Source: Candidatus Microsaccharimonas sossegonensis (GTDB taxonomy: Bacteria; Patescibacteriota; Saccharimonadia; Saccharimonadales; Saccharimonadaceae). Taken from it: a stretch of DNA of 64,000 nucleotides. The stretch covers positions 603,453-667,452 of the forward strand of contig SCKX01000001.1 of the NCBI GenBank assembly GCA_004100325.1, written 5' to 3'. Under the pieces are notes generated by a model. It had not been told where the DNA came from, did no database searches, and saw only the letters and a list, made by a program, of their open reading frames with translations. The position numbers and the translations under genes were made by a program. Shown in pieces: positions 190-21,519 of the stretch (positions are counted from its first letter, which is position 1; the number at the start of each line of letters is the position of its first letter).

Positions 190-777
190 TTACCTAATGG
201 TTATATGACGACCAGGAACAATTCTGGAGTTTGGTGAGTTTGGAGGCAGTGGATTTTGCGAAATCTGAGGACGAGTTGTCGAAAGTCGTCTCAGGACGGT
301 TTTTAACTGCGTTGGATAGGTGTGCTTGCCACTAATGACGACCGGTTTCTCAATTTCGGATGGATGTTGAAATTTTGTATATGCAGCGTCAAACTGTTTG
401 CTGGTAAGGCTTGAAACACCACGTTGTTTTTTGGTTGCGCGGTGTTTTGATTCTGAGGGGTCTGTTTGAACCCAGACAAGCAGTGGCTTGTACCCTGCCT
501 TTGTGAGCATATTTGCAAGCGCCATGCGCTGCGTACGCAGATAGGTTGACCCTTCATAAATGAGCGTCGTGTGTGTTTTCAAGAGTTCGTCGAAAAGTAA
601 TTTTGTAATCTTTTCAGTCGTGTCGACGTCACTACCAATCATGTTTGAAATCATACCAGCATTTATGTAGGGTGCATCAAACGTTTTTGAAAAATGTTCC
701 GCAAAAGTCGTCTTACCTGAACCCGGAATGCCCACCATAATAATAACGTGAGGCGTGTTTGGAGTGAGTGGTTTCAT
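190..777 (-). CDS. P-loop AAA/zeta-toxin-like kinase
   Basis: Walker A GIPGSGKTT near the N-terminus; compact single-domain kinase pattern. Confidence 0.75.
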   Translation of the reverse strand: MKPLTPNTPHVIIMVGIPGSGKTTFAEHFSKTFDAPYINAGMISNMIGSDVDTTEKITKLLFDELLKTHTTLIYEGSTYLRTQRMALANMLTKAGYKPLLVWVQTDPSESKHRATKKQRGVSSLTSKQFDAAYTKFQHPSEIEKPVVISGKHTYPTQLKTVLRRLSTTRPQISQNPLPPNSPNSRIVPGRHITIR

Positions 778-815
778 ATATGACAGTATAGCAAAGATGT
801 GTCGTTATTTGCAGC

Positions 816-1277
816 CTAGCGAAGGAAGAAATACACGCCAATACCTAGTGCGGTGACGACGATAATACCCCCGATAACGATAAATGGTTTTCGAGGCGCT
901 GGATGGTTTGTAAAGAATTGGAAGGCACGTGACGTCGAAGCATGTGTCAGCTCTTCAGCAATCGCTTCGGCTGTTGTGGCGGGTTTTTTTGGTTTTTGTG
1001 GCGTCACTGGTGCAAGTGGGTGTTTTATTTCAACTGGTTTTAGCGTAGGGGCGATTGGTCTCACGCCAATCGGTTCTTTGATCTTTGGTGTCAAGGTTGG
1101 CATAGCTACAGCCGGTTCCCGAGGAGGCACCGGCTGACTACCCGACGCATGTGAAGGTTTTGCCAGGTCGTCAACAGAGCGAGCCTCAAGTGCCTCAATC
1201 GCTAAAAGATGAGGATCCTCTTCGGGCACCACTACCTCGACAGGCTCGACATGATTGGGACGTGAATTGTGATCCAT
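816..1277 (-). CDS. Pro-rich hypothetical protein with C-terminal TM helix
   Basis: ORF; C-terminal hydrophobic stretch FIVIGGIIVVTALGIGVYFFLR. Confidence 0.6.
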   Translation of the reverse strand: MDHNSRPNHVEPVEVVVPEEDPHLLAIEALEARSVDDLAKPSHASGSQPVPPREPAVAMPTLTPKIKEPIGVRPIAPTLKPVEIKHPLAPVTPQKPKKPATTAEAIAEELTHASTSRAFQFFTNHPAPRKPFIVIGGIIVVTALGIGVYFFLR

Positions 1278-1379
1278 GAACTTTTTTGCCTCGTATGTTA
1301 CACTTGCGCTTACGGTTACTTGTAGTATAGCAAAAAAACAGTACTATCATCTAGCTCTATCTGAAAATGGCCTCTATTT

Positions 1380-1715
1380 TTAGCCTCTTAACATTTTTTC
1401 TTCTTGATCAAGCTTGCTGATTTGGGCTTGACTGGCATTCTCTATTTCGGTTTTTTGGCGTTGTAAAATAGTAGCTCGTGCATCTAATTCTGTCGCTTTT
1501 ATGTCAAATTTTTGGGCAGCCTGATCATGTTGGGCAGCTTTTTCTATCAAAGACTGCGCTTCATTGGCATATTTACTAGACGCATCAGGATCATCTACGG
1601 CGTTATCCGCGTCTGCTTGTCTTTTTTCAGCTTCTTTTCGAAAACTGTCCGCTTTTTGACGCTCTTTACCAGCGGCATCTTGTAGTTCTCTTATTGTGAG
1701 CATCGGCACCTCCAA
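1380..1715 (-). CDS. coiled-coil hypothetical protein
   Basis: ORF with charged heptad-like, Ala/Gln-rich sequence. Confidence 0.55.
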   Translation of the reverse strand: MEVPMLTIRELQDAAGKERQKADSFRKEAEKRQADADNAVDDPDASSKYANEAQSLIEKAAQHDQAAQKFDIKATELDARATILQRQKTEIENASQAQISKLDQEEKMLRG

Positions 1716-1864
1716 CCAGTGTATTTCTCATATTAGTATACGCGTATCATCCCTTTGAGGCTATACTGTGCTATGGATAAAAGTAGTACCACTTACTACT
1801 CTCATACGAAACACGTCATTGAACGTCTAGATAATCAAGCGACTCCGGGACCTAGTTCGTTAAG

Positions 1865-2104
1865 TTATTCACGAACGCGGGTCATCAACCGTAGATTTGA
1901 AAGATAGTGGGATGCGTTAAGGGTCGTATGTTGACTAAGATATTCCATATGTTTGTCGACGAATAGTACGTTGCCGCCAGCCGCCGGCGAATACATCGAC
2001 TTCGTGTTAAATTCAGGGTCAGTCATCATGTTGTTAAGAATCTCACGAATCTCTTTTGCTTCTTTGGAATCAAGGAAACGCTGTGCGCTTAAGGATTTTG
2101 TCAT
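1865..2104 (-). CDS. hypothetical protein
   Basis: 79 aa ORF, no recognised domain. Confidence 0.4.
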   Translation of the reverse strand: MTKSLSAQRFLDSKEAKEIREILNNMMTDPEFNTKSMYSPAAGGNVLFVDKHMEYLSQHTTLNASHYLSNLRLMTRVRE

Positions 2105-2345
2105 GAAGCAACCATTTTTTTAGGTTTTTTGACTTCTTTCTTTCGGTCTCGTCCCTTTGACATAAGCCACCTTTCCTTGTGTCTCCGTTATGGAGATATA
2201 TTTGCATACTATTATGCGCCTTTTTTTGTGATTTGGCTAATTTTGCTCACATGCCTGGCACATAAGAACCTAATTTTTTATTCGTTAATTCGCCTACTGA
2301 CGCATGTACTTAACTAATAGTATACATATATGTGTATAATTCTCC

Positions 2346-3533
2346 ATGGGAAATGTGACAAAAATCCAATCATCTGAACGACAATACTCAAACGAGTCAC
2401 TGCCGACGTTAAACTTGTCTTCTGCCGCTAATGAACTGTATAAAAATGAGCAAATTGCTCCGATCGAAGTATCAGTCGACAGCTCTCTGCGCCTCAAAGT
2501 ACTCGATCAATGCGGCATGGCCTGTGTTTTTTGTCATAACGAAGGAACACCAGTGAGCTCTGATAATGTTGGTCGTGAGGCTTCCGAGTTTACGTCAGCC
2601 GGTACATCGAGTCGCGTCTCAATTTATCTCAGCACAAATGGTGCGGATTTTGTCAGTGGTAATGTGCAGCCGGACATAGCCCTGCAGGAAGCAGTCCGCA
2701 GTATTGATAATTTGGTCGATATTCATGAGGTTCACTTAACTGGAGGTGAGCCGACTCTTCATCCACGATTACCGGAAATTGTCAGGCAACTAACCGACGA
2801 TGGTCATAAAGTAAAAATGACGAGCAATGGTGAGCGTTTTTATACCATGGCTCCAGCATTAAAAGAAGCTGGGCTGAGTAAGGTTGTTTTTAGTATTTTT
2901 GGAACGACACCCGAGGATCTTGCTGCGGTTCAAGGTGGAAAGTTTAATAATCTAAAGTTCGCGCAGCTAAAACTTGATGCACTCGAAAGGTCTATTGTTG
3001 CGGCATATGAAAATGGCATTGAAACATCTGCCAATATTGTGATGCCAAGTCTTGATCATGCCGAGCGAATTATAAATATTATTGATCGGTTTGGTGACTT
3101 TTGTAAGATCCGTATTTTAAACTCTCTTGACGAAGGTATAGAATCATACGAAGCTGTCTACGAAGTGCTCGCGATGATGGGTACTAAAGTTCAAAAAGTA
3201 AACATGACAGCTGGCGCATCGAGCATGTCAGTTGATTATGTGCTTCCGGATCATAAAGCAGTCGGATTTAAGCAGATACGCAAGTCATATTTAAGTGAAG
3301 TGTGCAATGACTGTGTATTAAAAGATAACGGATGCGAAGAAGGATTTTATGGCATGCGTATGTACGTTGATAGAATGAATCAATATCGAGTCGGTGTATG
3401 TATCCAACGCATGGATCTTACCCGTCCATTAGACTTATTTATGCGTAGTAATTTACCAGAGGCAATTAGAGCGAACAGAAGTCAAGAATATGATAGAATT
3501 ATTGAGACAACGCAAATTGAAAGGATTTTGTAA
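2346..3533 (+). CDS. radical SAM protein (MoaA-like fold)
   Basis: LKVLDQCGMACVFCHNEGTP contains CX3CX2C; VHLTGGEPTLHP is a radical SAM GGEP motif; C-terminal Cys cluster CNDCVLKDNGCEEGFYG. Confidence 0.9.
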   Translation: MGNVTKIQSSERQYSNESLPTLNLSSAANELYKNEQIAPIEVSVDSSLRLKVLDQCGMACVFCHNEGTPVSSDNVGREASEFTSAGTSSRVSIYLSTNGADFVSGNVQPDIALQEAVRSIDNLVDIHEVHLTGGEPTLHPRLPEIVRQLTDDGHKVKMTSNGERFYTMAPALKEAGLSKVVFSIFGTTPEDLAAVQGGKFNNLKFAQLKLDALERSIVAAYENGIETSANIVMPSLDHAERIINIIDRFGDFCKIRILNSLDEGIESYEAVYEVLAMMGTKVQKVNMTAGASSMSVDYVLPDHKAVGFKQIRKSYLSEVCNDCVLKDNGCEEGFYGMRMYVDRMNQYRVGVCIQRMDLTRPLDLFMRSNLPEAIRANRSQEYDRIIETTQIERIL

Positions 3534-3538
3534 GACTT

Positions 3539-4117
3539 GTGTCCTCAGAGTCAGTGAAAGATATTGAAGTTGAGCTTCGCACCTACGACGTAGATGGCGA
3601 TGCGCTTCGAGCAACACTCCGAACCTTAGGAGCGGTGAGCCTTGGTGAACTGGTTTTTAAACGTGCGGTTCTTGACGTTTACCCAGCGGATCCAAATAAA
3701 TGGATCCGTGTTCGTTCAAACGGTATTGAAACGACCCTTGCAGTCAAGCAGCGTGGGACGGCTACGGAAATGGACGGCGAAATCGAAGAACGGGTTGAGT
3801 CGTTCGAAACGACGTTGCAATTGTTGGCTTCACTTGGGTTTGAACCTCGCAGTGTTCAAGAATCACGCAGTGATATTTACACGATTGATGGCACAGAAGT
3901 TTCCATTGATACGTGGCCAGGTTTGAAAGAGCTGTTAGAGATAGAGGCTAAAGACACTCATGCATCTGTTGGCGAGCGTACGGCGACGATTTATAAGGTT
4001 GCTGAAAAGCTCGGCATTCCTGTCGAAGCTTTGACAACCGAGTCAATCGAACAACGCTACATGGATACTTTAGGGATTGACGTAAAGACAACGTCGCTGA
4101 CATTCGATACACTGTAG
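3539..4117 (+). CDS. CYTH-domain protein (class IV adenylate cyclase / thiamine triphosphatase-like)
   Basis: N-terminal EVELR-type motif (IEVELRTYDV), WIRVRSNG, LAVKQRG, and acidic/basic alternation typical of CYTH; RBS-distance spacing from the upstream gene. Confidence 0.8.
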   Translation: MSSESVKDIEVELRTYDVDGDALRATLRTLGAVSLGELVFKRAVLDVYPADPNKWIRVRSNGIETTLAVKQRGTATEMDGEIEERVESFETTLQLLASLGFEPRSVQESRSDIYTIDGTEVSIDTWPGLKELLEIEAKDTHASVGERTATIYKVAEKLGIPVEALTTESIEQRYMDTLGIDVKTTSLTFDTL

Positions 4118-4122
4118 ACATA

Positions 4123-4698
4123 ATGAAAGTCCATTTTACCGGATCTAACTACAAGCTTGACGAGCACTACGTCGACTACTCGGCTATTATTTCTTATTTG
4201 AAGTCCCAAGGACACACATTAACTCGCGAATGGATCGATGAAGATCTAAAACATCAAAATAAAGATGCCGAATACAGCGAGGTTGAGTATCGTGAGATAT
4301 GGCAAAAAGTAAAGAACTCAATTATGATATCTGACGCTGTGATTATTGAAGGATGGAATAACAGCTTTAGTATAGGCTATCAGACGGCTTTTGCTCTCAG
4401 TTATAAAAAACCTGTTTTAGTTATGACTCCTAATAACAAGATCAGCCATACGATTATAGCTGGTGAAGACAATCCTTTCTTGCATATTGTGCACTATACT
4501 GAAGCAACGCTTGAATCTGTATTAAAGGAATTTTTGGACAAATTCCAAGTAAGCGATAAAGATATGCGCTTTAATATGTTTATTGACCGTGAAACGCAAG
4601 TGTACCTTGATATTGAGTCGTACAAGACGGGTAAAACAAAAGCAAAAATCATTCGTGACCTGATTAAACGCGAAATTCGTAATAACGAAGGTTTATAG
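4123..4698 (+). CDS. nucleoside 2-deoxyribosyltransferase-like / DUF4406-like protein
   Basis: MKVHFTGSNY...IMISDAVIIEGWNNSFSIGYQTAFALSYKKPVLVMTPN resembles the NDT fold (substrate loop plus D-A-V-I-x-E). Confidence 0.6.
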   Translation: MKVHFTGSNYKLDEHYVDYSAIISYLKSQGHTLTREWIDEDLKHQNKDAEYSEVEYREIWQKVKNSIMISDAVIIEGWNNSFSIGYQTAFALSYKKPVLVMTPNNKISHTIIAGEDNPFLHIVHYTEATLESVLKEFLDKFQVSDKDMRFNMFIDRETQVYLDIESYKTGKTKAKIIRDLIKREIRNNEGL

Positions 4699-4718
4699 AT
4701 TAAAAAAGCCATTTTGAA

Positions 4719-4740
4719 AAGCACCCGATGAAGGGTGCTT
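4719..4740 (+). terminator. intrinsic terminator of the radical SAM/CYTH/NDT-like operon
   Basis: AAGCACCC-gatgaa-GGGTGCTT followed by a T/C-rich stretch, 20 nt after the stop. Confidence 0.6.
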
Positions 4741-4752
4741 CTTCATTCTGCC

Positions 4753-4782
4753 GGCGAGTCGTCATTTTTGAGACGACTCGCC
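4753..4782. repeat. perfect inverted repeat (stem-loop)
   Basis: GGCGAGTCGTC-atttttga-GACGACTCGCC, 11 bp perfect stem between convergent units. Confidence 0.8.
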
Positions 4783-4862
4783 GACACGAATGGTTCGCGT
4801 ATGGCAGACGCGAGGCTGTTCTAGATGACAGATCTAGGACTGGCTCATTTTGGACGGAAGAG

Positions 4863-5924
4863 CTACCGTTTGCTACCTTCTAGAGACACCCCATTACTAT
4901 TCAGGAATGCAATAGGATCAGCGGGCTTTCCATTCAGATGGACCAGCAAATGTAGGTGGTTGCCAGTGGATACACCGGTTGACCCAACATATCCAATAAC
5001 TTGACCTGCTGTTACTGTATCCCCTTTCTTAAGCCCTGCAGCGATGCTGGACATGTGTGCGTATCCAATGGTGACGTTGTTTCCAGCGTCCATGCCGACA
5101 TAGGTACCATACGTTCCGTTGTCTCCGGCAAAGGTGACAGTACCGGAACGCACGGCATAAATCGGCGTGTTTTTGGCAGCACCGAGATCGACGCCATCGT
5201 GCAGCTTATACCGAAGCGTGACCGGGTTAATGCGCATGCCAAAAATATCATTGATACGATACGTACCCGCTGCCAGTGGAAGTTGCCAACCAGTCGACTG
5301 ACAACTATTCGTCGCGCCAGGTGCTGCCACCTGGCTTAACAGTTCGGTGCCGGTTTTGTCCCAATTCCACCGTTTTTGGTATGCCGCTAGGTTTGGATTC
5401 TCGACGTCGATGGCGATGGTGATCATCGAAAGCGAGTCGAGGTTACCCTTCACGTTTTTATGAAGTGTGTCAAACCACTTGTTTGCGGCATAGGTGACAT
5501 TGAGTATTTCTGCTCGTGTCCCCCATCCTTGACTTGGACGCATCTGAAACACGCCCACACTATCTGAACCGTCACTCGCCTTTGTTTCAACATTGGTGAG
5601 ATTCGATTCTTGGATGCCAGTAGCGATCGCGGTGGCGATTGCCTTTGGGGTCTCTTGTGGTGTGCGTTGCATGCCTGCGGCGTAGATCTGTGTTGCGATC
5701 TGGAGCTTTTTCTTCTGATCATCTTTCGAGAACAGATTTAGATACTCCTGGGCAGACATGCCGGTCAACTGATTGGAACCAGTGAACGACACGCTCGCTG
5801 CTGCGGTGCAGCTGTTGCCTCCTGAAAGGAGACCACCAACTACACCAACAGCAAGCGGTACAGCCATGAAACTACCGAGCGAGATAAGCCCGATAGTCAG
5901 TGCGACTTTTCTATCGAGCGCCAT
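4863..5924 (-). CDS. T4SS-associated cell-wall hydrolase: lysozyme-like domain + M23 peptidase
   Basis: N-terminal TM; central lytic-transglycosylase-like region (GIQESNLTN..GVFQMRPSQGWG); C-terminal HDGVDLG and GNHLHLLVH M23 motifs. Confidence 0.85.
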   Translation of the reverse strand: MALDRKVALTIGLISLGSFMAVPLAVGVVGGLLSGGNSCTAAASVSFTGSNQLTGMSAQEYLNLFSKDDQKKKLQIATQIYAAGMQRTPQETPKAIATAIATGIQESNLTNVETKASDGSDSVGVFQMRPSQGWGTRAEILNVTYAANKWFDTLHKNVKGNLDSLSMITIAIDVENPNLAAYQKRWNWDKTGTELLSQVAAPGATNSCQSTGWQLPLAAGTYRINDIFGMRINPVTLRYKLHDGVDLGAAKNTPIYAVRSGTVTFAGDNGTYGTYVGMDAGNNVTIGYAHMSSIAAGLKKGDTVTAGQVIGYVGSTGVSTGNHLHLLVHLNGKPADPIAFLNSNGVSLEGSKR

Positions 5925-5938
5925 GTTTCCTCTCTAGG

Positions 5939-7462
5939 TTAGTTCCGGATTTCCTCTGCGATTTGCTTGGCTCGAAGGGCTGCGAGCTTCGCAAGTCGCT
6001 CGGGGTACTCCGGCATTTCATCGATGGGTTGGATGTTCCTCAGGCGATCGCGCGAGGAGTTGGACTGAACCAGCGGAATCTCCGATTCCAGCAGCCTGTG
6101 CTGAAAACGAACGGGTTCCCTGTTTCTAATCCATAGCACGCCTTCTCCTGGTTCGAAGTAAGGCATTTGTGCAACCAGTGCTTCGGTCATACCCGGGAGT
6201 TTCGAAATTTCATGCAAGACATCGGTGTCATCCGACTGTCGCATAAAAAACCGTATGCCCACTCCCAGATCAATCTCTTTTGCAAGTGCCCGCATTTCAG
6301 AGCCTGCGGAGCCCGCTTCGGTGACCTGCATGCCGAACTGATACATGCGCCAGAGCGACGTCGCACGCTTTCGTACCGTTGCCGATCCGTTCGCTTGCGT
6401 ACGCAGATGGAACAGACCCTTCGCCGCTACTCCTTCCTCATCACTAATGAAGAGGTGGGGAATAATGCGGCTCAGGTCACGGTTGGTACCGATCTCCTTG
6501 TCGTCGTATTGGACTCCGTCGTTCTCGGCTTGCATGATGACAGCCTCCAGGAACGCGTTCGCGAGCATGGGGATGTCTTCTGTATCAAGAAGGGCGACGC
6601 GCTGGATCAGGATGTCATAGAGCGACTCCTTGCCTCCGAACGCATCTCCATACTCTGGACCCATGAGCCTATCCAGACACTTGGCGGCATGGCTTGCCGT
6701 CTCAAGGAAGGACAGGTCGACATGGGTGATCGTGGCATCAAGCCGCAGCTGTTCCCGAAGATTCGGAAACCGCGTGAACTCCTGCTCGAAATCTTTTTCG
6801 AGCTGCCGACGACCCTCCCTGTAGTACTCGTCGAAGTCCGTCATGACCAGTCCTCGAAGGGCTTCTGCGATCAGACGTTCGCCGATGAGTTCGGGCTTCT
6901 CCTTCATGATGCGGGTAACAGCGATCGAGACCGCTGGTGCAACCTGGATGTTATCGTATTGTTTCCCGATATCTTGGATGATCCCGACAGTTGCGCTGAT
7001 GATGCTAGTGGGCGACTTCAGCAGACCGATCAAATTGATTCGCTTACCTTTGCCGATTTTGAAAAAAGTCGCATGCAGGGATTTGGCCACAGGGCCGTAC
7101 TCTGCCACGCCGTTTTCCGAACGACGACTCACGATACGTGTCCGCCAGTACTCCGGACGACCCAGGGGGTCACGAGCCTGAAGGAGGGCGCAACGCTTGA
7201 TCATTGACTTGGCGAAGGTTGACTTTCCCGCCCCTTGCTCACCAGCAACGGTGACCGATGTGGTCTTACTGTCAATCAGGTGGGGGTGGAAAAACATCAG
7301 GTCGGCCATGTAGGTGTAATTACCCACAGGGACTCCTAGTTTCTGTAGGGGCTTCGGTGCGACGTTGGGCTGATAGAGCGCCATCGCCTCAGGAGTACCC
7401 CTGTACACTCGACCGCGCACGATCTTTCCTTTCGTTGGGGGATGATGAATTGTGTGGTACAT
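5939..7462 (-). CDS. T4SS/conjugation ATPase (VirB4/TraE-like, actinobacterial type)
   Basis: Walker A GEQGAGKSTFAKS; Walker B-like HLFISDEEG; located among T4SS genes. Confidence 0.75.
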   Translation of the reverse strand: MYHTIHHPPTKGKIVRGRVYRGTPEAMALYQPNVAPKPLQKLGVPVGNYTYMADLMFFHPHLIDSKTTSVTVAGEQGAGKSTFAKSMIKRCALLQARDPLGRPEYWRTRIVSRRSENGVAEYGPVAKSLHATFFKIGKGKRINLIGLLKSPTSIISATVGIIQDIGKQYDNIQVAPAVSIAVTRIMKEKPELIGERLIAEALRGLVMTDFDEYYREGRRQLEKDFEQEFTRFPNLREQLRLDATITHVDLSFLETASHAAKCLDRLMGPEYGDAFGGKESLYDILIQRVALLDTEDIPMLANAFLEAVIMQAENDGVQYDDKEIGTNRDLSRIIPHLFISDEEGVAAKGLFHLRTQANGSATVRKRATSLWRMYQFGMQVTEAGSAGSEMRALAKEIDLGVGIRFFMRQSDDTDVLHEISKLPGMTEALVAQMPYFEPGEGVLWIRNREPVRFQHRLLESEIPLVQSNSSRDRLRNIQPIDEMPEYPERLAKLAALRAKQIAEEIRN

Positions 7463-7520
7463 GAGGTATTGGATAACACCTCAGAAACAATGTTAACAGG
7501 AAACATAACTGCTGAAATGT

Positions 7521-7576
7521 TATACATCCGGGTGACCGACGCAGCTTTCGCTACGCCAGTCACCCGGAGATGTATA
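7521..7576. repeat. long imperfect inverted repeat in intercistronic gap
   Basis: TATACATC--CGGGTGAC / GTCACCCGGAGATGTATA (16 paired bases with a 2 nt bulge). Confidence 0.8.
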
Positions 7577-7589
7577 CCGGAGTGTCTGA

Positions 7590-9326
7590 TCATTCACAAT
7601 CGATCAGTGTGACAGTGGTAAGGAACTTCTTCCACTGTTGGCTGGGTCGGCTCACTTGCACTGGAGTATACCCCAATGTAGCGAATCGATCCATGTCAGC
7701 CGCGATCTGCTCCTCCAGGTCTTCTTCCGAGCTCTCAAGTGCAGCAAATCGAATCACATAGTTCTGGCGAACAGACGACTCATCGATGTTTCTGAGTTCG
7801 TCGTAGCGTTCGTTCTGCCGCCGTTCAGCCCGAGGACCGGTGCGGATGATCCCAGCATTGTCGGCTAGTTCGCCGATTGCACCGAGACCATTGTTCGTGA
7901 CGATGTACTCCATGTTACTGCTGTGAGACTGACCGATCACGGAGAATGACGTGAACCTTGAGATGGCGTCTGTGAGGTCAGCCATCTCATGTGCTAGAGC
8001 TTCCTCACGTGGATACTCCGTCATATCAAGCACCGTTGCATAGGTGCCGTCCACGTTGATTCCGGTCTTCGAGGTGATGACATGACTCACTGGAAGGTAG
8101 CGATCGTACATTGCGTCTCCCACTACTTCGATGCCGTTGTGCTGTCGTTCCTTGTTCAGAAGCAATAGCTCTTCGGCTTCGTTGTAGTAGTCGAACAGTG
8201 TTGTGACGTCGCGCGACTTCCGTAAGTATCGTTCAGCTTGCTCGACGTCCAGGATCTCTGTACCGCCCCCTACTAAAGCGTCAAGCTTTGGGAAGACGAT
8301 GTTTTTAATCCTGGTGATCGTGAGGCGTCGGAAAACTTTCTCCGACATCTCGTTCTTCTTGTTTTTGGTCTCGAACGCCTTCCTCAGAGCGTCGTTCTCC
8401 TTGACGGTGACGACCAACACCATGTCTGTGCTATAGGACTGCACCGTCAGTTCGGCGAATCCCTCTGCCTGCATCTCGTACAACGCGACGTTCATCTTGT
8501 CGTCGAGAGTGTAGGTTTCGGGATCCTTTTCGGACAGGATGGCCTCCGGCATGATTACTTCCATGCTGGCGACCTGCTTCATCGTTTCGGGAATAAGCCA
8601 CTGGTCTTGCGGCCGGTTGCGAACTCCCATTGCGATGTTAAGGCCACGGAGACCGGCGGTGACCGTTGCCTGTTTGATGAGGTCAGCGTAGCCCTTGATC
8701 GTTAGATACTGGTTCACATGAGACATGCTCCGGAACCTGCTTCCATCGGTCTTGAACACCATCGAGTAGGTCCGCTTCTCCTTCTGAAAAATCAGACCCA
8801 CCTTAGAACCATCCCGAAGCACCATCCCTCGAACTTCGAGGGGAAAAATCTTGGCGCTCCGTTCACGGTCAATCTCGCTCAGTGTGAACTGAGCGATGAC
8901 GGCATCAGGAATGTCATCGACGGTCGTTTTGACCCGCCGAACATTTCCTACACGCTTTGCCTCAGTCTGCTTCGCGTCGGCAATCGCTTGCTCCACCTGC
9001 ACCGATTGCTCGGATCGGAAGAGTTCGTGATGTTTGACAGCCACTGTCCACCAGTCCATCACCAAAGTAATGGGAATCTGATAGAGACGCTCATTGAACT
9101 TGCCGCTCTTCGGAGTGTACATCGTGATACCCCAGAAAATGATCAGGGGTACCAGGGCCAATGTTGTTAACCAGCTCAGGCCATTCTGTGCGAGAACGCT
9201 CATCGTGACCAACCCGAAGGCTGCGACGATTGATGTCCAGAACCAGTCGAGTGCTTCATGTGGGAGGAACCGCTGGCCCCGCGTTCGAGGATGTCGAATC
9301 CCTGGCGCGTTGTTATCGATAGACAC
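7590..9326 (-). CDS. SCO6880-family type IV secretion/conjugation membrane protein
   Basis: Two N-terminal TM helices and a large soluble domain like actinobacterial SCO6880 conjugal proteins. GTG start at 9326 has GGGAGG RBS upstream; the tracked ORF extends to 9401. Confidence 0.65.
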   Translation of the reverse strand: MSIDNNAPGIRHPRTRGQRFLPHEALDWFWTSIVAAFGLVTMSVLAQNGLSWLTTLALVPLIIFWGITMYTPKSGKFNERLYQIPITLVMDWWTVAVKHHELFRSEQSVQVEQAIADAKQTEAKRVGNVRRVKTTVDDIPDAVIAQFTLSEIDRERSAKIFPLEVRGMVLRDGSKVGLIFQKEKRTYSMVFKTDGSRFRSMSHVNQYLTIKGYADLIKQATVTAGLRGLNIAMGVRNRPQDQWLIPETMKQVASMEVIMPEAILSEKDPETYTLDDKMNVALYEMQAEGFAELTVQSYSTDMVLVVTVKENDALRKAFETKNKKNEMSEKVFRRLTITRIKNIVFPKLDALVGGGTEILDVEQAERYLRKSRDVTTLFDYYNEAEELLLLNKERQHNGIEVVGDAMYDRYLPVSHVITSKTGINVDGTYATVLDMTEYPREEALAHEMADLTDAISRFTSFSVIGQSHSSNMEYIVTNNGLGAIGELADNAGIIRTGPRAERRQNERYDELRNIDESSVRQNYVIRFAALESSEEDLEEQIAADMDRFATLGYTPVQVSRPSQQWKKFLTTVTLIDCE

Positions 9327-10458
9327 TGAGACCTCCCTTTTTTGGACTCGCTTGCTTGTTGCCGATGGCACCGCCAACAGCCTTGATGAGCGGAGGCCCA
9401 ATCATGACTGCGGCTTTTGCCGCCGGATGGACATTGCTTCCAGCCATAGCAGCTGCTTTAGCTGCCTTGATCCCCCACGCAGTAAGCGCGGACGAGGCGG
9501 TTGCGGTGGCAGCCAAGGTAACCTCTTTCTTGAAGTTTTGCCCTTTGCTAACCTCATTAATACTACGCGTCCGGTTTGTCATGGCCGTTTCGACCTTGTT
9601 GGTGACACGAGCCTCCACCTTCTGGCGACCCTGTGTCCATGATCGAACTGATCCCTTGATCTCGCCGTTCAGCTTACCGATCACGTTACTCACGCTACGA
9701 TAAAACAGGAACGGCATCACGATTTGTGACAGTATTGCGAGCGTCATGCCAGCCCAATTGATGAGCCCAATCCAGAACAATCCCGATGAAGGGATCAGAT
9801 TGGCGAACCAATTACTTAGTTCTACAATGGCAATTGCGACAGGCTGACCAAACAGTTCGGTGACGAGCAGGATCGAGATAATCACGGACATAGTGCGGCG
9901 AGACCGAGGTCCCATACCGTACATGTACGCAACGATCACGCCGAACAACGTCAAAACGATGTTGATCAGTTGGTAAGACACGAACAGAAGCGTTAGTGCC
10001 ATAGACCATGAAAATAGCGAAGCAAAAATCGCCGAGTCGAACAGTCCATTGCCGAACGTAAAGTCCGGCAGGACGATCGCAGGGTCGGTTTTTGACGCCG
10101 TTTGCTGACCAATGCTCAGTACCAAAATTGTTAGGCTGCGACTCAAGCTATTCATCGTCGAGATTGCCAGAAACCAGACGGTTCCCAACACGGTCGATGC
10201 GACAAATATTAGCAACGAGTACACAGCTGACAATCGGTGACGTGAGATCAAGATACCCATGGGCACCATGATCAATGCAATGACCAGCGCTAGCGCTGTT
10301 CCAAAACCGTAACCGTTTGCAAACAGCCACTGGACGATGGACAAGTTGTCGAAATTGAGTGAAGTTCCGACAACCTTGAGAAGCACCTGAAATACAGCCT
10401 GATACGCGTCCTTCAACGCGCTTGGCCAATCCCAAGGAAACATTGGAACTCCAATCAA
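9313..10458 (-). CDS. polytopic TrbL/VirB6-like T4SS membrane protein
   Basis: Multiple hydrophobic helices, Ala-rich C-terminus; overlaps the next gene start. Confidence 0.7.
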   Translation of the reverse strand: MIGVPMFPWDWPSALKDAYQAVFQVLLKVVGTSLNFDNLSIVQWLFANGYGFGTALALVIALIMVPMGILISRHRLSAVYSLLIFVASTVLGTVWFLAISTMNSLSRSLTILVLSIGQQTASKTDPAIVLPDFTFGNGLFDSAIFASLFSWSMALTLLFVSYQLINIVLTLFGVIVAYMYGMGPRSRRTMSVIISILLVTELFGQPVAIAIVELSNWFANLIPSSGLFWIGLINWAGMTLAILSQIVMPFLFYRSVSNVIGKLNGEIKGSVRSWTQGRQKVEARVTNKVETAMTNRTRSINEVSKGQNFKKEVTLAATATASSALTAWGIKAAKAAAMAGSNVHPAAKAAVMIGPPLIKAVGGAIGNKQASPKKGGLSVYR

Positions 10459-13285: not shown

Positions 13286-13314
13286 ATTACAAAATACACA
13301 TAAAGATGTATAAT
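13286..13314 (+). promoter_or_regulatory. sigma70-type promoter for Cys-rich peptide gene
   Basis: ATTACA-N17-TATAAT (13286-13291 / 13309-13314); -10 is perfect consensus. Confidence 0.65.
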
Positions 13315-13344
13315 ATAGTTGTTGGCTCTAGAGAAATGGAGAAC

Positions 13345-13524
13345 ATGAGTACAGCACTGTTGGAGCGTCCAACCTCCGAAAAGAAGGCTGTGGATCTACC
13401 TTCACTCGCTCATATGAAAGTCCGCGAGCCCGTTATGGGAGGCTGCGACTGCACCTGCACTGGGTGCAACGGCGATCCCACGTGGTGTCACTGCCATAAT
13501 CGGAACCGCGGATGTGACCTGTGA
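13345..13524 (+). CDS. small Cys-rich peptide with double-Gly leader-like N-terminus (candidate RiPP/bacteriocin precursor or metal-binding peptide)
   Basis: MSTALLERPTSEKKAVDLPSLAHMKVREPVMGG-CDCTCTGCNGDPTWCHCHNRNRGCDL: 7 Cys in the last 26 aa. The tracked start (13306) overlaps the promoter -10, so ATG 13345 (or 13336) is preferred. Confidence 0.65.
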   Translation: MSTALLERPTSEKKAVDLPSLAHMKVREPVMGGCDCTCTGCNGDPTWCHCHNRNRGCDL

Positions 13525-13530
13525 GCCACA

Positions 13531-13559
13531 GGGCCACTGGACGTAGTTCCAGTGGCCCC
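13531..13559 (+). terminator. strong intrinsic terminator
   Basis: GGGCCACTGG-acgtagtt-CCAGTGGCCC, 10 bp stem immediately after the stop. Confidence 0.8.
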
Positions 13560-13605: not shown

Positions 13606-14147
13606 ATGGTTACGACAATCAAACAAGCGCATCAACCGGAAAAAGGCAACTGGTTTCAACCGAAGAATTTGTTTGACAAAGTGTTCGAATACGGAACCCT
13701 TATTAAAGGTATTGATGGTGTCATTCAAGCACTAACGGCGATTTCTCTCATTTTTATTAGTCCTCAGCGCCTTCAGGGTTTGGTTGTGTTGGCAACGCGC
13801 CGTGAACTTGCTGGTGATCCGGATGACTTCATTTCAAATTTTCTTATTCACGCATCGCAGCAATTTACTAACAGTGCCCGCCTTTTTTTATTGTATATCT
13901 TGCAGTTCATGCCGCAATTAAAATTGTATCGGTAGTTGGATTATTACGAAATAACATGTGGGCGTATCCATTTGCTCTTATTTCACTGGGCGCTCTGACG
14001 TTGTATCAAATCTATGATATTTTCTTTGGTTCAGGCTCGATTGTCTTTATTATATTGACGGTAGTAGATATTGCTATCTTGGCGCTGATTTGGCGTGAGT
14101 TTCAAAAGGTGAAAACAGAAGGGTTTTACAAAAAGCCCGTCTCATAG
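13606..14147 (+). pseudogene. DUF2127 membrane protein split by a frameshift
   Basis: ORFs 13606-13935 and 13956-14147 become one protein if T7 at 13883-13889 is read as T8: ...ARLFFIVYLAVHAAIKIVSVVGLLRNNMWAYPFALI... Confidence 0.75.
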
Positions 14148-14238: not shown

Positions 14239-15198
14239 ATGCCTAAGAATACAAAACAAAAAAATCTCTCTAACTTTGGATATATGTCTCGAATAGGCAT
14301 GATTGCCATAAGTATTTTGATCATTATAGTGGCAGCTAGTTTCTCGGTGTATGTCCTTTCAAATTACCAGTCAAAAGTCGTGACAATAACTGATATACCG
14401 ACCGTCCAAAAGAGTGACAGCGATAAGCTTTCGGGATCAACCACGACCGTTACACAAGTGACGAAACCACCAGTTGAAAAACCGGCGCCAGTTGTCACAC
14501 CTGCACCGGCCAGCAAAGTGCCAAGCCTGGCACCCACCAGTCCCCCGTCAAGTAATACAACGACGACTACCTACCAGTCGACGAACTGGGCAGGATATCT
14601 CTCGACCGGCGGTACTTTTACGGCAGTATCTGGTACCTGGATTGCATCGTCACCTACCCCAACCAGCACAACAAAAGAATCGGGTGATGGTACATGGGTC
14701 GGCATTGGGGGTATTACAACAAAAGATCTTATACAAATTGGAACTGAAAACACGTTTTCTGCAGCTGGTGTTATGTCGACGTCCGCTTTTTACGAGCTGC
14801 TCCCTGCCGGAGCTGTCGGTATCGTATCGGTTCCGATTTCACCAGGCGATACGGTATCAGCGTCAATTAGTCAACAAGCTGCGAACCAGTGGATGTTGTC
14901 TATCACGAATGTTACGACCGGTAAAACTTTTTCACGATCAGTCAGCTATTCGTCATCACTCTCTTCAGCTGAGTGGATCCAGGAAGACCCTAGCAATCCT
15001 GATGGCAGCCTTGTGCTACTCGACAATTTTGGGACCGTTCAATTCACGAATGCCGTCACGACAATGAATGGAACCACGATGTCCGCGGCTGCAAGTAGTG
15101 CTTCTCAGATTCACTTAATCGGCCAAGGAGAAGCAGCTGGTCACGGAGGAACACCTTCTGCGATCAACGGTAGTTCGTTTAGTGTTCGGTATTATTAA
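14239..15198 (+). CDS. secreted/membrane-anchored G1 (eqolisin-like) glutamic peptidase
   Basis: N-terminal TM, Pro/Thr-rich linker, then STNWAGYLSTGGTFTAVSGTWIA..GTWVGIGG..AFYELLPAG..AEWIQEDP matching the peptidase A4/G1 pattern. Confidence 0.8.
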   Translation: MPKNTKQKNLSNFGYMSRIGMIAISILIIIVAASFSVYVLSNYQSKVVTITDIPTVQKSDSDKLSGSTTTVTQVTKPPVEKPAPVVTPAPASKVPSLAPTSPPSSNTTTTTYQSTNWAGYLSTGGTFTAVSGTWIASSPTPTSTTKESGDGTWVGIGGITTKDLIQIGTENTFSAAGVMSTSAFYELLPAGAVGIVSVPISPGDTVSASISQQAANQWMLSITNVTTGKTFSRSVSYSSSLSSAEWIQEDPSNPDGSLVLLDNFGTVQFTNAVTTMNGTTMSAAASSASQIHLIGQGEAAGHGGTPSAINGSSFSVRYY

Positions 15199-19033: not shown

Positions 19034-21163
19034 CTAAACGTTTGATGCTAATCGACGAGAATTTTGTGCGATTACCTGGCTGACTGCTTCAGCTTGAGGC
19101 AATTTCAGGCGCTTTAAAAGGAGTGCGTTCACTGCAACAATCACACTGGAGCCCGACATTGATAGTGCCGCAATCTCGGGACTGAGTTTTAGACCTAAGG
19201 AGCTATAGAATACGCCAGCCGCAATCGGTAATGCAATTGTGTTATACCCAACTGCCCAAGAAAGATTTTGATGCATTTTCCGAAGCGTTCCTTTGCCAAT
19301 TCGAAGTGCCGTCGGTACACCCAAAGGATCTGATCGCATCAACACAACGTCGGCCGTTTCAATTGCTACATCAGTACCAGCACCAATAGCTATGCCAAGG
19401 TCAGACTGTGCGAGGGCAGGAGCATCATTTACGCCGTCACCAACCATCGCAACACGTTTGCCTTGTTTTTGCAGTTCAGCGATTTTTGCAGATTTGTCCG
19501 CTGGAAGCACTTCGGCGATGACAGTGTCTATGTGTAACTGCGACGCAATTCGTTCGGCGGTTGCTTGGTTATCACCAGTCAGCATCACGACTTCTATTCC
19601 TGAATCGTGCAGTGCTTTTATGGCACTGACAGCCGTATCACGTATAGCATCAGCTAGGGCTATAATGCCGACCGCTTCTCCATCAACTGCCACTAAAACG
19701 GTTGTCCGGCCAGTCGAAGATAATTCTTCGCGCTTTTTTGAAACTGGATCAATATTTATACCTTCAGCGGTCATTAGTTTACGATTACCGATAAACACCT
19801 TGTGACCATCGACTGTCGCACCAGCGCCGTGTCCTGGAACGTTACGAAAGGCGGTTGCTTTGAGAACGCTGGCTTTTTTTGCTTCTGCATATGTGACGAC
19901 AGCACCTGCTAGTGGATGTTCTGATTCTCTTTCAACCGCGGCAACCAGACCAAGCAACTGCTTCTTATCATAAGAAAGTGTAATAAAGTCTGTCACCTCG
20001 GGCTTTCCTTGCGTTAATGTGCCCGTCTTATCCATAACAACAGTTGTGATACGTGCTGATGTTTCAAGCGCAGAGGCGGTTTTGAACAAAATCCCTCGTT
20101 TTGCGCCCAGACCTGTTCCGACCATGATCGCTGTTGGTGTCGCGAGCCCTAATGCATCAGGACAAGTAATAACGACGACGGTGATGGCGAACAAAATAGC
20201 AACCTGGAACGTAGCACCGAACAGTAACCATGAAACGAGAGTAAGAATACCACCAATCAGAGCAACGAGCACCAGCCAAAAAGCAGCTCGGTCAGCCAGA
20301 CGCTGGCCTGGCGCTTTTGAACTCTGTGCATCTTGCACCAGTTCCACAATTTGGGCAAGAACCGTATCAGCTCCGACTTTCGTCGCACGTACCCGAAGGG
20401 TTCCCGTCGTATTTAAAGTTGCACCAATGACTGGTGATCCAACCGTTTTAGCCACAGGCAGGCTTTCCCCTGTCACCATTGACTCATCAATATCAGAATC
20501 ACCTTCTTCGACAATACCGTCGGTTGGGATTTTAGAGCCAGGTCGAATAAGCAGTATGTCGCCTATGACAAGCTCTGAAGTCAGGACTTCAATCGTTTCG
20601 CCTTTTCTGATCACAAACGCTTTAGGGGGAGCAAGCTTAAGTAAAGTTTTCACGGCATCATTCGCACCGCCTCGAGCACGCATTTCGAGCCAGTGTCCGA
20701 GCAATACAAAGCTTGTCAGCACCGTCGCTGCTTCGTAGAATACGTCACCGCCACCAGTAAGGGTAACAAACAGGCTATACAGCCAGCCGGCACCGACCCC
20801 AACAGCGACCAGTACCATCATATTTAAAGTCCGCGCTCTTAATGCTCTATAGGCACCATCGAAAAATATCCAGGCTGAATAAAAGATAACCGGTAACGAG
20901 AGGATGAGGGTAAAGATATCATCACGTAGCCCAAAAGGAGCCGGAGTTTTAAATCCAAACACGTCACGTCCGATAGGAGACCAAAACACGATAATCAATG
21001 AAAGTATGGCCGCGACAATAAAGCGGTTGCGCATATCTTTTACCATTGACTGCATTGACATGCCAGCATGGCCACCGCCATGACCCATACTATGAGGGTC
21101 ACTCTTTTGAGTATCGGTTTGTGAGGGAGAGTGTTGCATGTGTTGGTGATGTGAGTGATCCAT
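19034..21163 (-). CDS. copper/heavy-metal P1B-type ATPase
   Basis: His-rich N-terminus, [15 protein letters not shown] phosphorylation motif, [14 protein letters not shown] motif, [10 protein letters not shown]. Confidence 0.92.
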
Positions 21164-21222
21164 AGTGATTTCCTTTCGGTTACATTTATTGTAAGGCCCA
21201 TTTACTCTACTTTTACTCTTTT

Positions 21223-21519
21223 TTATGCCTCTTTACTTCTTACGGCGTGTATTTCGTACATGCCAAGTAAGTCAGCTTGGGCTTGTCGTTGCCTTGCTTC
21301 GTCGTCCGAACCAAGCATAGGTATGATATGCTCTGCGATATGATTATCGATCATCAATTTACTAAATGACGATAAAGACCTTTGGATCGCCAGGCTTTGA
21401 GTCAGTATATCCATACAATACACATCGTTATCGACCATCTTTTGTAAACCATTAATTTGTCCTTGAATGATTTTGATTCGATGATCCGCTCGTTTATTTA
21501 CCTTCTCAATCATATTCAT
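21223..21519 (-). CDS. csoR: CsoR-family metal-sensitive repressor
   Basis: [27 protein letters not shown] typical of CsoR/RcnR; upstream of the P1B ATPase. Confidence 0.88.

Follow-up and report, generated by a model that had tools for sequence, protein, structure and literature searches.

A short stand-alone gene in the window (the whole stretch of DNA analysed here, 64,000 nucleotides from Candidatus Microsaccharimonas sossegonensis) encodes a member of an apparently undescribed family of Cys/His mini-proteins, as seen in Patescibacteria genomes and viral contigs. The family is defined by a core at the C-terminal end of a short open reading frame (ORF), C-x-C-x-C-x2-C-x(3-13)-H-C-x(~5)-G-C. 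We give a roughly even chance to the reading that the product is a cytosolic metal-thiolate (Zn-type) mini-protein, either metallothionein-like or a binding module, with metal binding, cytosolic location and role all inferred.

The features of the locus, which lies in a genome of 0.81 Mb that is 97% complete, are collected in Table 1. The first-pass annotation had described a stand-alone Cys-rich mini-gene with an ATTACA-N17-TATAAT promoter, a polar segment of 33 residues ending in MGG, a 26-residue core with seven Cys and a terminator with a 10-bp stem, and most of this description stands. The gene is real and has relatives with the same Cys spacing, and its translation from 13345, MSTALLERPTSEKKAVDLPSLAHMKVREPVMGG followed by CDCTCTGCNGDPTWCHCHNRNRGCDL, begins with the polar segment and has all seven Cys, along with two His, in the 26 residues of the core. 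There are three in-frame ATGs (13306, 13336 and 13345); the first, suspected from the outset of being the wrong start, is improbable because it overlaps the -10 box, and 13345, with GGAGA just 5' of it, or 13336 is likelier. The promoter-like site is present as claimed but is by itself weak evidence, because the region's four such sites are not above the 4.9 +/- 2.2 found in shuffles. As for the terminator, the perfect stem is there (z = -4.3), but the hairpin lacks a U-tract and is therefore missing from the list produced by the terminator scan.

Table 1. Coordinates of the mini-gene, its flanking signals and the partner protein; positions refer to the window unless a locus handle precedes them.
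Feature	Position	Strand	Basis and remarks
Sigma-70-type promoter-like site, ATTACA-N17-TATAAT	13286-13314	+	10/12 matches; ATTACA 13286-13291, 17-nt spacer, TATAAT 13309-13314
Mini-gene, 59 aa	13345-13524	+	ORF; relatives via profile; in-frame ATG at 13336 also possible; stop codon 13522-13524
N-terminal segment, polar, variable, 33 aa, ends MGG	13345-13443	+	N-terminal alignment scores not above shuffles
Conserved Cys/His core CDCTCTGCNGDPTWCHCHNRNRGCDL	13444-13521	+	28-sequence alignment A7; scores beat shuffles; codon usage at conserved columns
Perfect 10-bp hairpin 3' of the stop, terminator-like, without U-tract	13531-13558	+	z = -4.34; 13531-13540 pairs with 13549-13558; -28.7 kcal/mol for the stretch
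Partner protein copies, ~190-198 aa	L053:6573-7163; L054:1067-1660; L059:1486-2046; L060:1462-2049		

Several neighbouring genes were also recorded. A gene for a DUF2127 membrane protein (13606-14147) is broken by a change of frame near eight consecutive T, which probably means a sequencing error or a recent pseudogene. Positions 14239-15198 encode a Peptidase_A4 protein (G1-type glutamic peptidase family) with an N-terminal membrane-anchor-like segment, and positions 19034-21519 hold two genes, one for a P-type metal ATPase whose N-terminus is rich in His and Met and, after it, one for a CsoR-type metal-sensitive repressor.

The core motif occurs once near an ORF end in the window and in none of 300 dinucleotide shuffles. 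Across 28 aligned members (alignment A7), C34, C36, C38, C41, H49, C50 and C57 are invariant and G56 is nearly so, while mean column identity is 21% and nearly all positions other than the ligands vary. For almost every pair, the core aligns better than composition-preserving shuffles do, which is not true of the relatives' N-termini; since only the core behaves in this way, it is the core, and not the N-terminal 'leader', that constitutes the conserved unit. N-termini comprise only 4-15 residues in several members and otherwise differ completely, being basic and amphipathic-looking in the G688, G504 and G741 copies and long and polar in those of G709 and the window. Among 42 distinct members, both TGT and TGC, or CAT and CAC, occur at all seven conserved Cys/His columns. 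Two pairs of phage copies are under strong purifying selection (L081/L095 and L086/L094, with pN of 0.22 and 0.12, respectively, and synonymous sites saturated). AlphaFold2, given 28 sequences, returned a low-confidence model of the peptide (mean pLDDT 66; the model contains no metals) with no regular secondary structure.

Within Patescibacteria the family amounts to ten genes in nine genomes, the window included. Within the same order, a protein search of 294 genomes recovered copies in G049 (E = 2e-4; core CTCRCLRCSTGNPNAHCGNPTTGCRVHC) and G063 (core CTCSCVYSTSGCNATPQVHCNQCSQGCHNQC, which is divergent and carries an insertion), and a profile built from the three sequences added G396 (E = 6e-5; core CTCRCPRCCTGNAHCHRYETGCNINW), which holds a second copy with the core CSCGCDRCARYDHCHGRRCLQ. 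When 290 Patescibacteria genomes were searched with a profile, four more emerged (G688, G504, G579 and G709), in four other families, and a profile of the core only (28 positions), built without G741, then recovered that genome at E = 3.3e-8. The profile search for the core that the first-pass annotation had proposed recovers relatives in Patescibacteria, Saccharibacteria included, and the Cys spacing, on which that annotation had staked its case, is conserved in them. Most of the phylum-wide relatives are short, and both a clear ribosome-binding site and a TATAAT-like box accompany them; such boxes lie 5' of the G688, G741, G504, G709 and G579 copies, and the G049 copy has a promoter-like site of the form TTGACA-N17-TATAGA. 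The family is patchy: in the phylum sample, the core is carried by 4 of 281 genomes. The DNA pattern GG-C-x-C-x-C-x2-C matches in 10 of 393 genomes, and only the matches in the window and G049 are genuine short ORFs of the family. One further observation concerns the G396 copy with the core CTCRCPRCCTGNAHCHRYETGCNINW (L053, near 6417): a run of eight C separates its N-terminal part from a core in another frame, which may reflect a sequencing error.

Members are also found outside bacterial genomes. We scanned IMG/VR, whose contigs are predicted to be viral and do not come from cultured viruses, with DNA patterns of the motif at four fixed spacings and, after discarding chance matches, retained genuine members in about 20 viral contigs. 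Here the motif mostly forms the last 25-40 residues of ORFs that span 35-95 codons from stop to stop. Tandem arrays of up to four genes occur (four each in L080 and L083, three or four in L089 and three in L082), and a control scan with the codon-reversed motif gave nine stretches and no arrays. L080, L128 and L130 are parts of a single 166-kb contig with at least six family members in its sampled parts. In 9 of 20 viral loci a member lies within 600 bp of a tRNA gene, against 4.0 expected by random placement within those loci (p = 0.0005, somewhat optimistic because some loci share a contig); more generally, the viral copies, which carry no export signal, are found in accessory regions and often have tRNA arrays next to them. 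The tRNA regions of four named phages (Streptomyces phages LuckySocke and Byblos, Mycobacterium phage ET08 and Gordonia phage Smoothie) are without a member. Next to the L083 array is a DNA polymerase gene whose product has its closest relatives in mycobacteriophages (46% identity), and several other contigs look, by eye, like phages of Actinobacteria. Two side observations belong here: L130 has 41 tRNA genes in 10 kb (595-9365), and an identical, extremely Cys-rich ORF of 44 residues ending in CCCPCGGCCGCPCHCGCCCCGCM recurs in viral contigs L097, L099, L100 and L105. The latter has no apparent kinship with the mini-protein family; it could be a repeat or a chance frame.

In two Saccharibacteria genomes the mini-gene has a companion. 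In both G049 and G396 it is convergent to a gene for a protein of ~197 residues, with about 36-65 bp between the stop codons; the two partners are 53% identical, and the second G396 copy has the same layout beside a paralogous partner. A fourth partner copy, in G049, has no adjoining mini-gene, so that convergent pairing holds for three of four copies. The partner is rare even within its order: among 293 genomes it occurs in G396 and G049, plus one weak match in G005, and searches of the window genome and G063 did not find it. The scan for the partner covered 85,462 genomes, and the search of genome contigs returned only G049 (EFPC_124) itself; viral contigs, plasmids and named phages yielded none. 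No credible family match emerged from Pfam, NCBIfam, PHROGs, PADLOC or PDB. The best weak match, to a CRISPR Csa3-type model (E = 0.0017, 16.9 bits, one paralogue only), is not credible, and the AlphaFold2 model of the partner (pLDDT 47) is uninterpretable.

What might such a protein do? In the mechanism that we propose, the C-terminal core would be the active part and the N-terminus a disposable or lineage-specific adaptor. One or two Zn(II)-type ions would probably be enclosed by the six invariant Cys and the invariant His in a small metal-thiolate knot that has hardly any regular secondary structure or none, and this knot could either buffer metal in the manner of a metallothionein or present a rigid binding module to a protein or RNA partner. 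Invariance confined to Cys, His and one Gly is what would be expected of such a knot, the main chemical alternative being a disulfide knot; a disulfide-bonded peptide would give the same invariant cysteines, which counts against the metal reading, and the absence of regular secondary structure in the predicted model would fit either knot. We nonetheless judge metal binding the more likely of the two because of the CxCxC, CxxC and His ligand sets, which metallothioneins and zinc knuckles typically show, and because the phage copies lack an export signal. The ATPase and CsoR-type repressor, at 5.5-8 kb from the mini-gene in the window, lend weak support, since the other loci are without such genes and metal genes are not recurrent neighbours across the family. 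Between the two roles, we favour the binding module because of the patchy distribution, the divergent tandem copies in phages and the partner pairing in two Saccharibacteria, a combination no less compatible with a binding module or effector than with a metal buffer.

A possible, though on balance unlikely, alternative is that the peptide is a disulfide-stabilised effector or antagonist acting in or on another bacterium, with the partner as its immunity or chaperone protein. Six invariant Cys suit three disulfides, and the patchiness of the family in the phylum sample, the strict convergent pairing at three loci with a partner that, within the sample, occurs in G049 and G396 only, apart from one weak match, and the kinship of at least one carrier phage with mycobacteriophages all point in this direction, as does the position of the window copy beside a possible secretion-system cluster. 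However, there is neither a signal peptide nor a conserved secretion signal, the phage copies reside in accessory tRNA-array regions without an export signal, and the partner is missing from the window genome and G063; moreover, Pfam does not confirm the T4SS assignment of the neighbours and has no match for most of the upstream genes. Actinobacteria are the hosts on which Saccharibacteria live, and some carrier phages appear to infect Actinobacteria-type hosts, so that both may target the same kind of cell. A still bolder and somewhat less probable proposal is that epibiotic Patescibacteria and phages have Cys/His mini-effectors in common that manipulate the same host process, perhaps one linked to tRNA or translation, and that the ~197-residue protein serves some Saccharibacteria as partner or immunity protein.

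Little different in standing from the effector is the view, to which we assign a low probability, that the gene encodes a conventional metallothionein, one that buffers metal but belongs to a new sequence class. The CxCxC and CxxC spacing and the His ligands recall SmtA and other bacterial metallothioneins, and a heavy-metal ATPase and a CsoR-type repressor lie within 8 kb in the window; yet the prokaryotic metallothionein family of Pfam gives no match, metal genes do not recur at other loci, and for a metal buffer it would be odd to have multiplied into divergent tandem genes next to the tRNA arrays of phages. Of the two first-pass suggestions, a metallothionein-like Cys/His peptide is still preferable to a double-Gly RiPP precursor.

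Very unlikely is the reading that the first-pass annotation had put foremost, a RiPP or peptide bacteriocin whose leader is cleaved after Gly-Gly by a C39 peptidase-transporter and whose Cys-rich core is modified. It could draw on the stand-alone gene with its Cys-rich core, on the GG that adjoins the first Cys in two copies (window and G049), and on a SagB-like nitroreductase, recognised by eye, 5' of the G688 copy. Against it, neither GG nor the leader is a family feature: N-termini are no more alike than shuffles, no other Patescibacteria copy has the GG, and some members are almost without a leader. The genome-wide search for C39 that had been proposed found no such peptidase (PF03412) in the window's own genome, where positive controls were detected; YcaO (PF02624) had no match there or in G049, and a weak one, below cut-off, in G063. 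As that annotation had noted, the locus has no obvious tailoring enzyme (the 17 window proteins encoded within about 9 kb include neither LanC/LanM nor a SPASM radical-SAM enzyme), and the relatives' loci share none. It is because conserved leader and GG, C39, YcaO and a recurrent tailoring gene are all wanting that we disfavour this reading. A chance ORF of biased composition, which the gene's shortness and the unexceptional promoter match might suggest, is practically dismissed by the motif's absence from 300 window shuffles, by purifying selection and by independent relatives with the same spacing.

The surprise in the family, whether metal-thiolate or not, is a patchy distribution common to host-dependent bacteria and phages. 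That a constrained motif of 26 residues is unannotated in the tested libraries points to a blind spot for very short genes. The core also offers a concrete, chemically simple target (does it bind metal, and what partner does it contact?), the study of which could show by what means phages and epibiotic bacteria disturb their hosts or adjust to them.

The first-pass annotation had thought a new family possible, and this is probably so. No family in Pfam, NCBIfam, PHROGs, PADLOC or PDB covers the peptide or its relatives above cut-off, metallothionein and zinc-finger families included; the best weak library matches of peptide, relatives and partner, all below cut-off, were judged to be chance. 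Against plasmids and named phages tblastn gave nothing credible, the core being too short and divergent for BLAST's reach, and a literature search found nothing on such a Cys/His mini-protein family. Three known systems nevertheless invite comparison. The FeoB-associated Cys-rich membrane protein (PF12669) is approached by the G504 copy (E = 0.02, 15.6 bits), but below the cut-off of 27, with different Cys spacing and no FeoB seen beside the mini-genes. Double-glycine-leader bacteriocins and RiPP precursors share the short precursor-like ORF and, for the window copy, the GG before the Cys-rich part, but differ in their conserved leader, processing enzymes and nearby tailoring genes. Bacterial metallothioneins of the SmtA/BmtA type (PF02069, Metallothio_Pro) differ from the family in its spacing, C-x-C-x-C-x2-C ... 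H-C ... G-C, and curated profiles in Pfam and NCBIfam do not match the mini-protein (PF02069 not even at E = 5); bacterial metallothioneins are not known from phage tandem arrays or as neighbours of tRNA genes. With these proteins, however, the window core has in common its very small size, its wealth of Cys arranged in CxC units and its Cys/His ligands, and regular secondary structure is not expected in them either.
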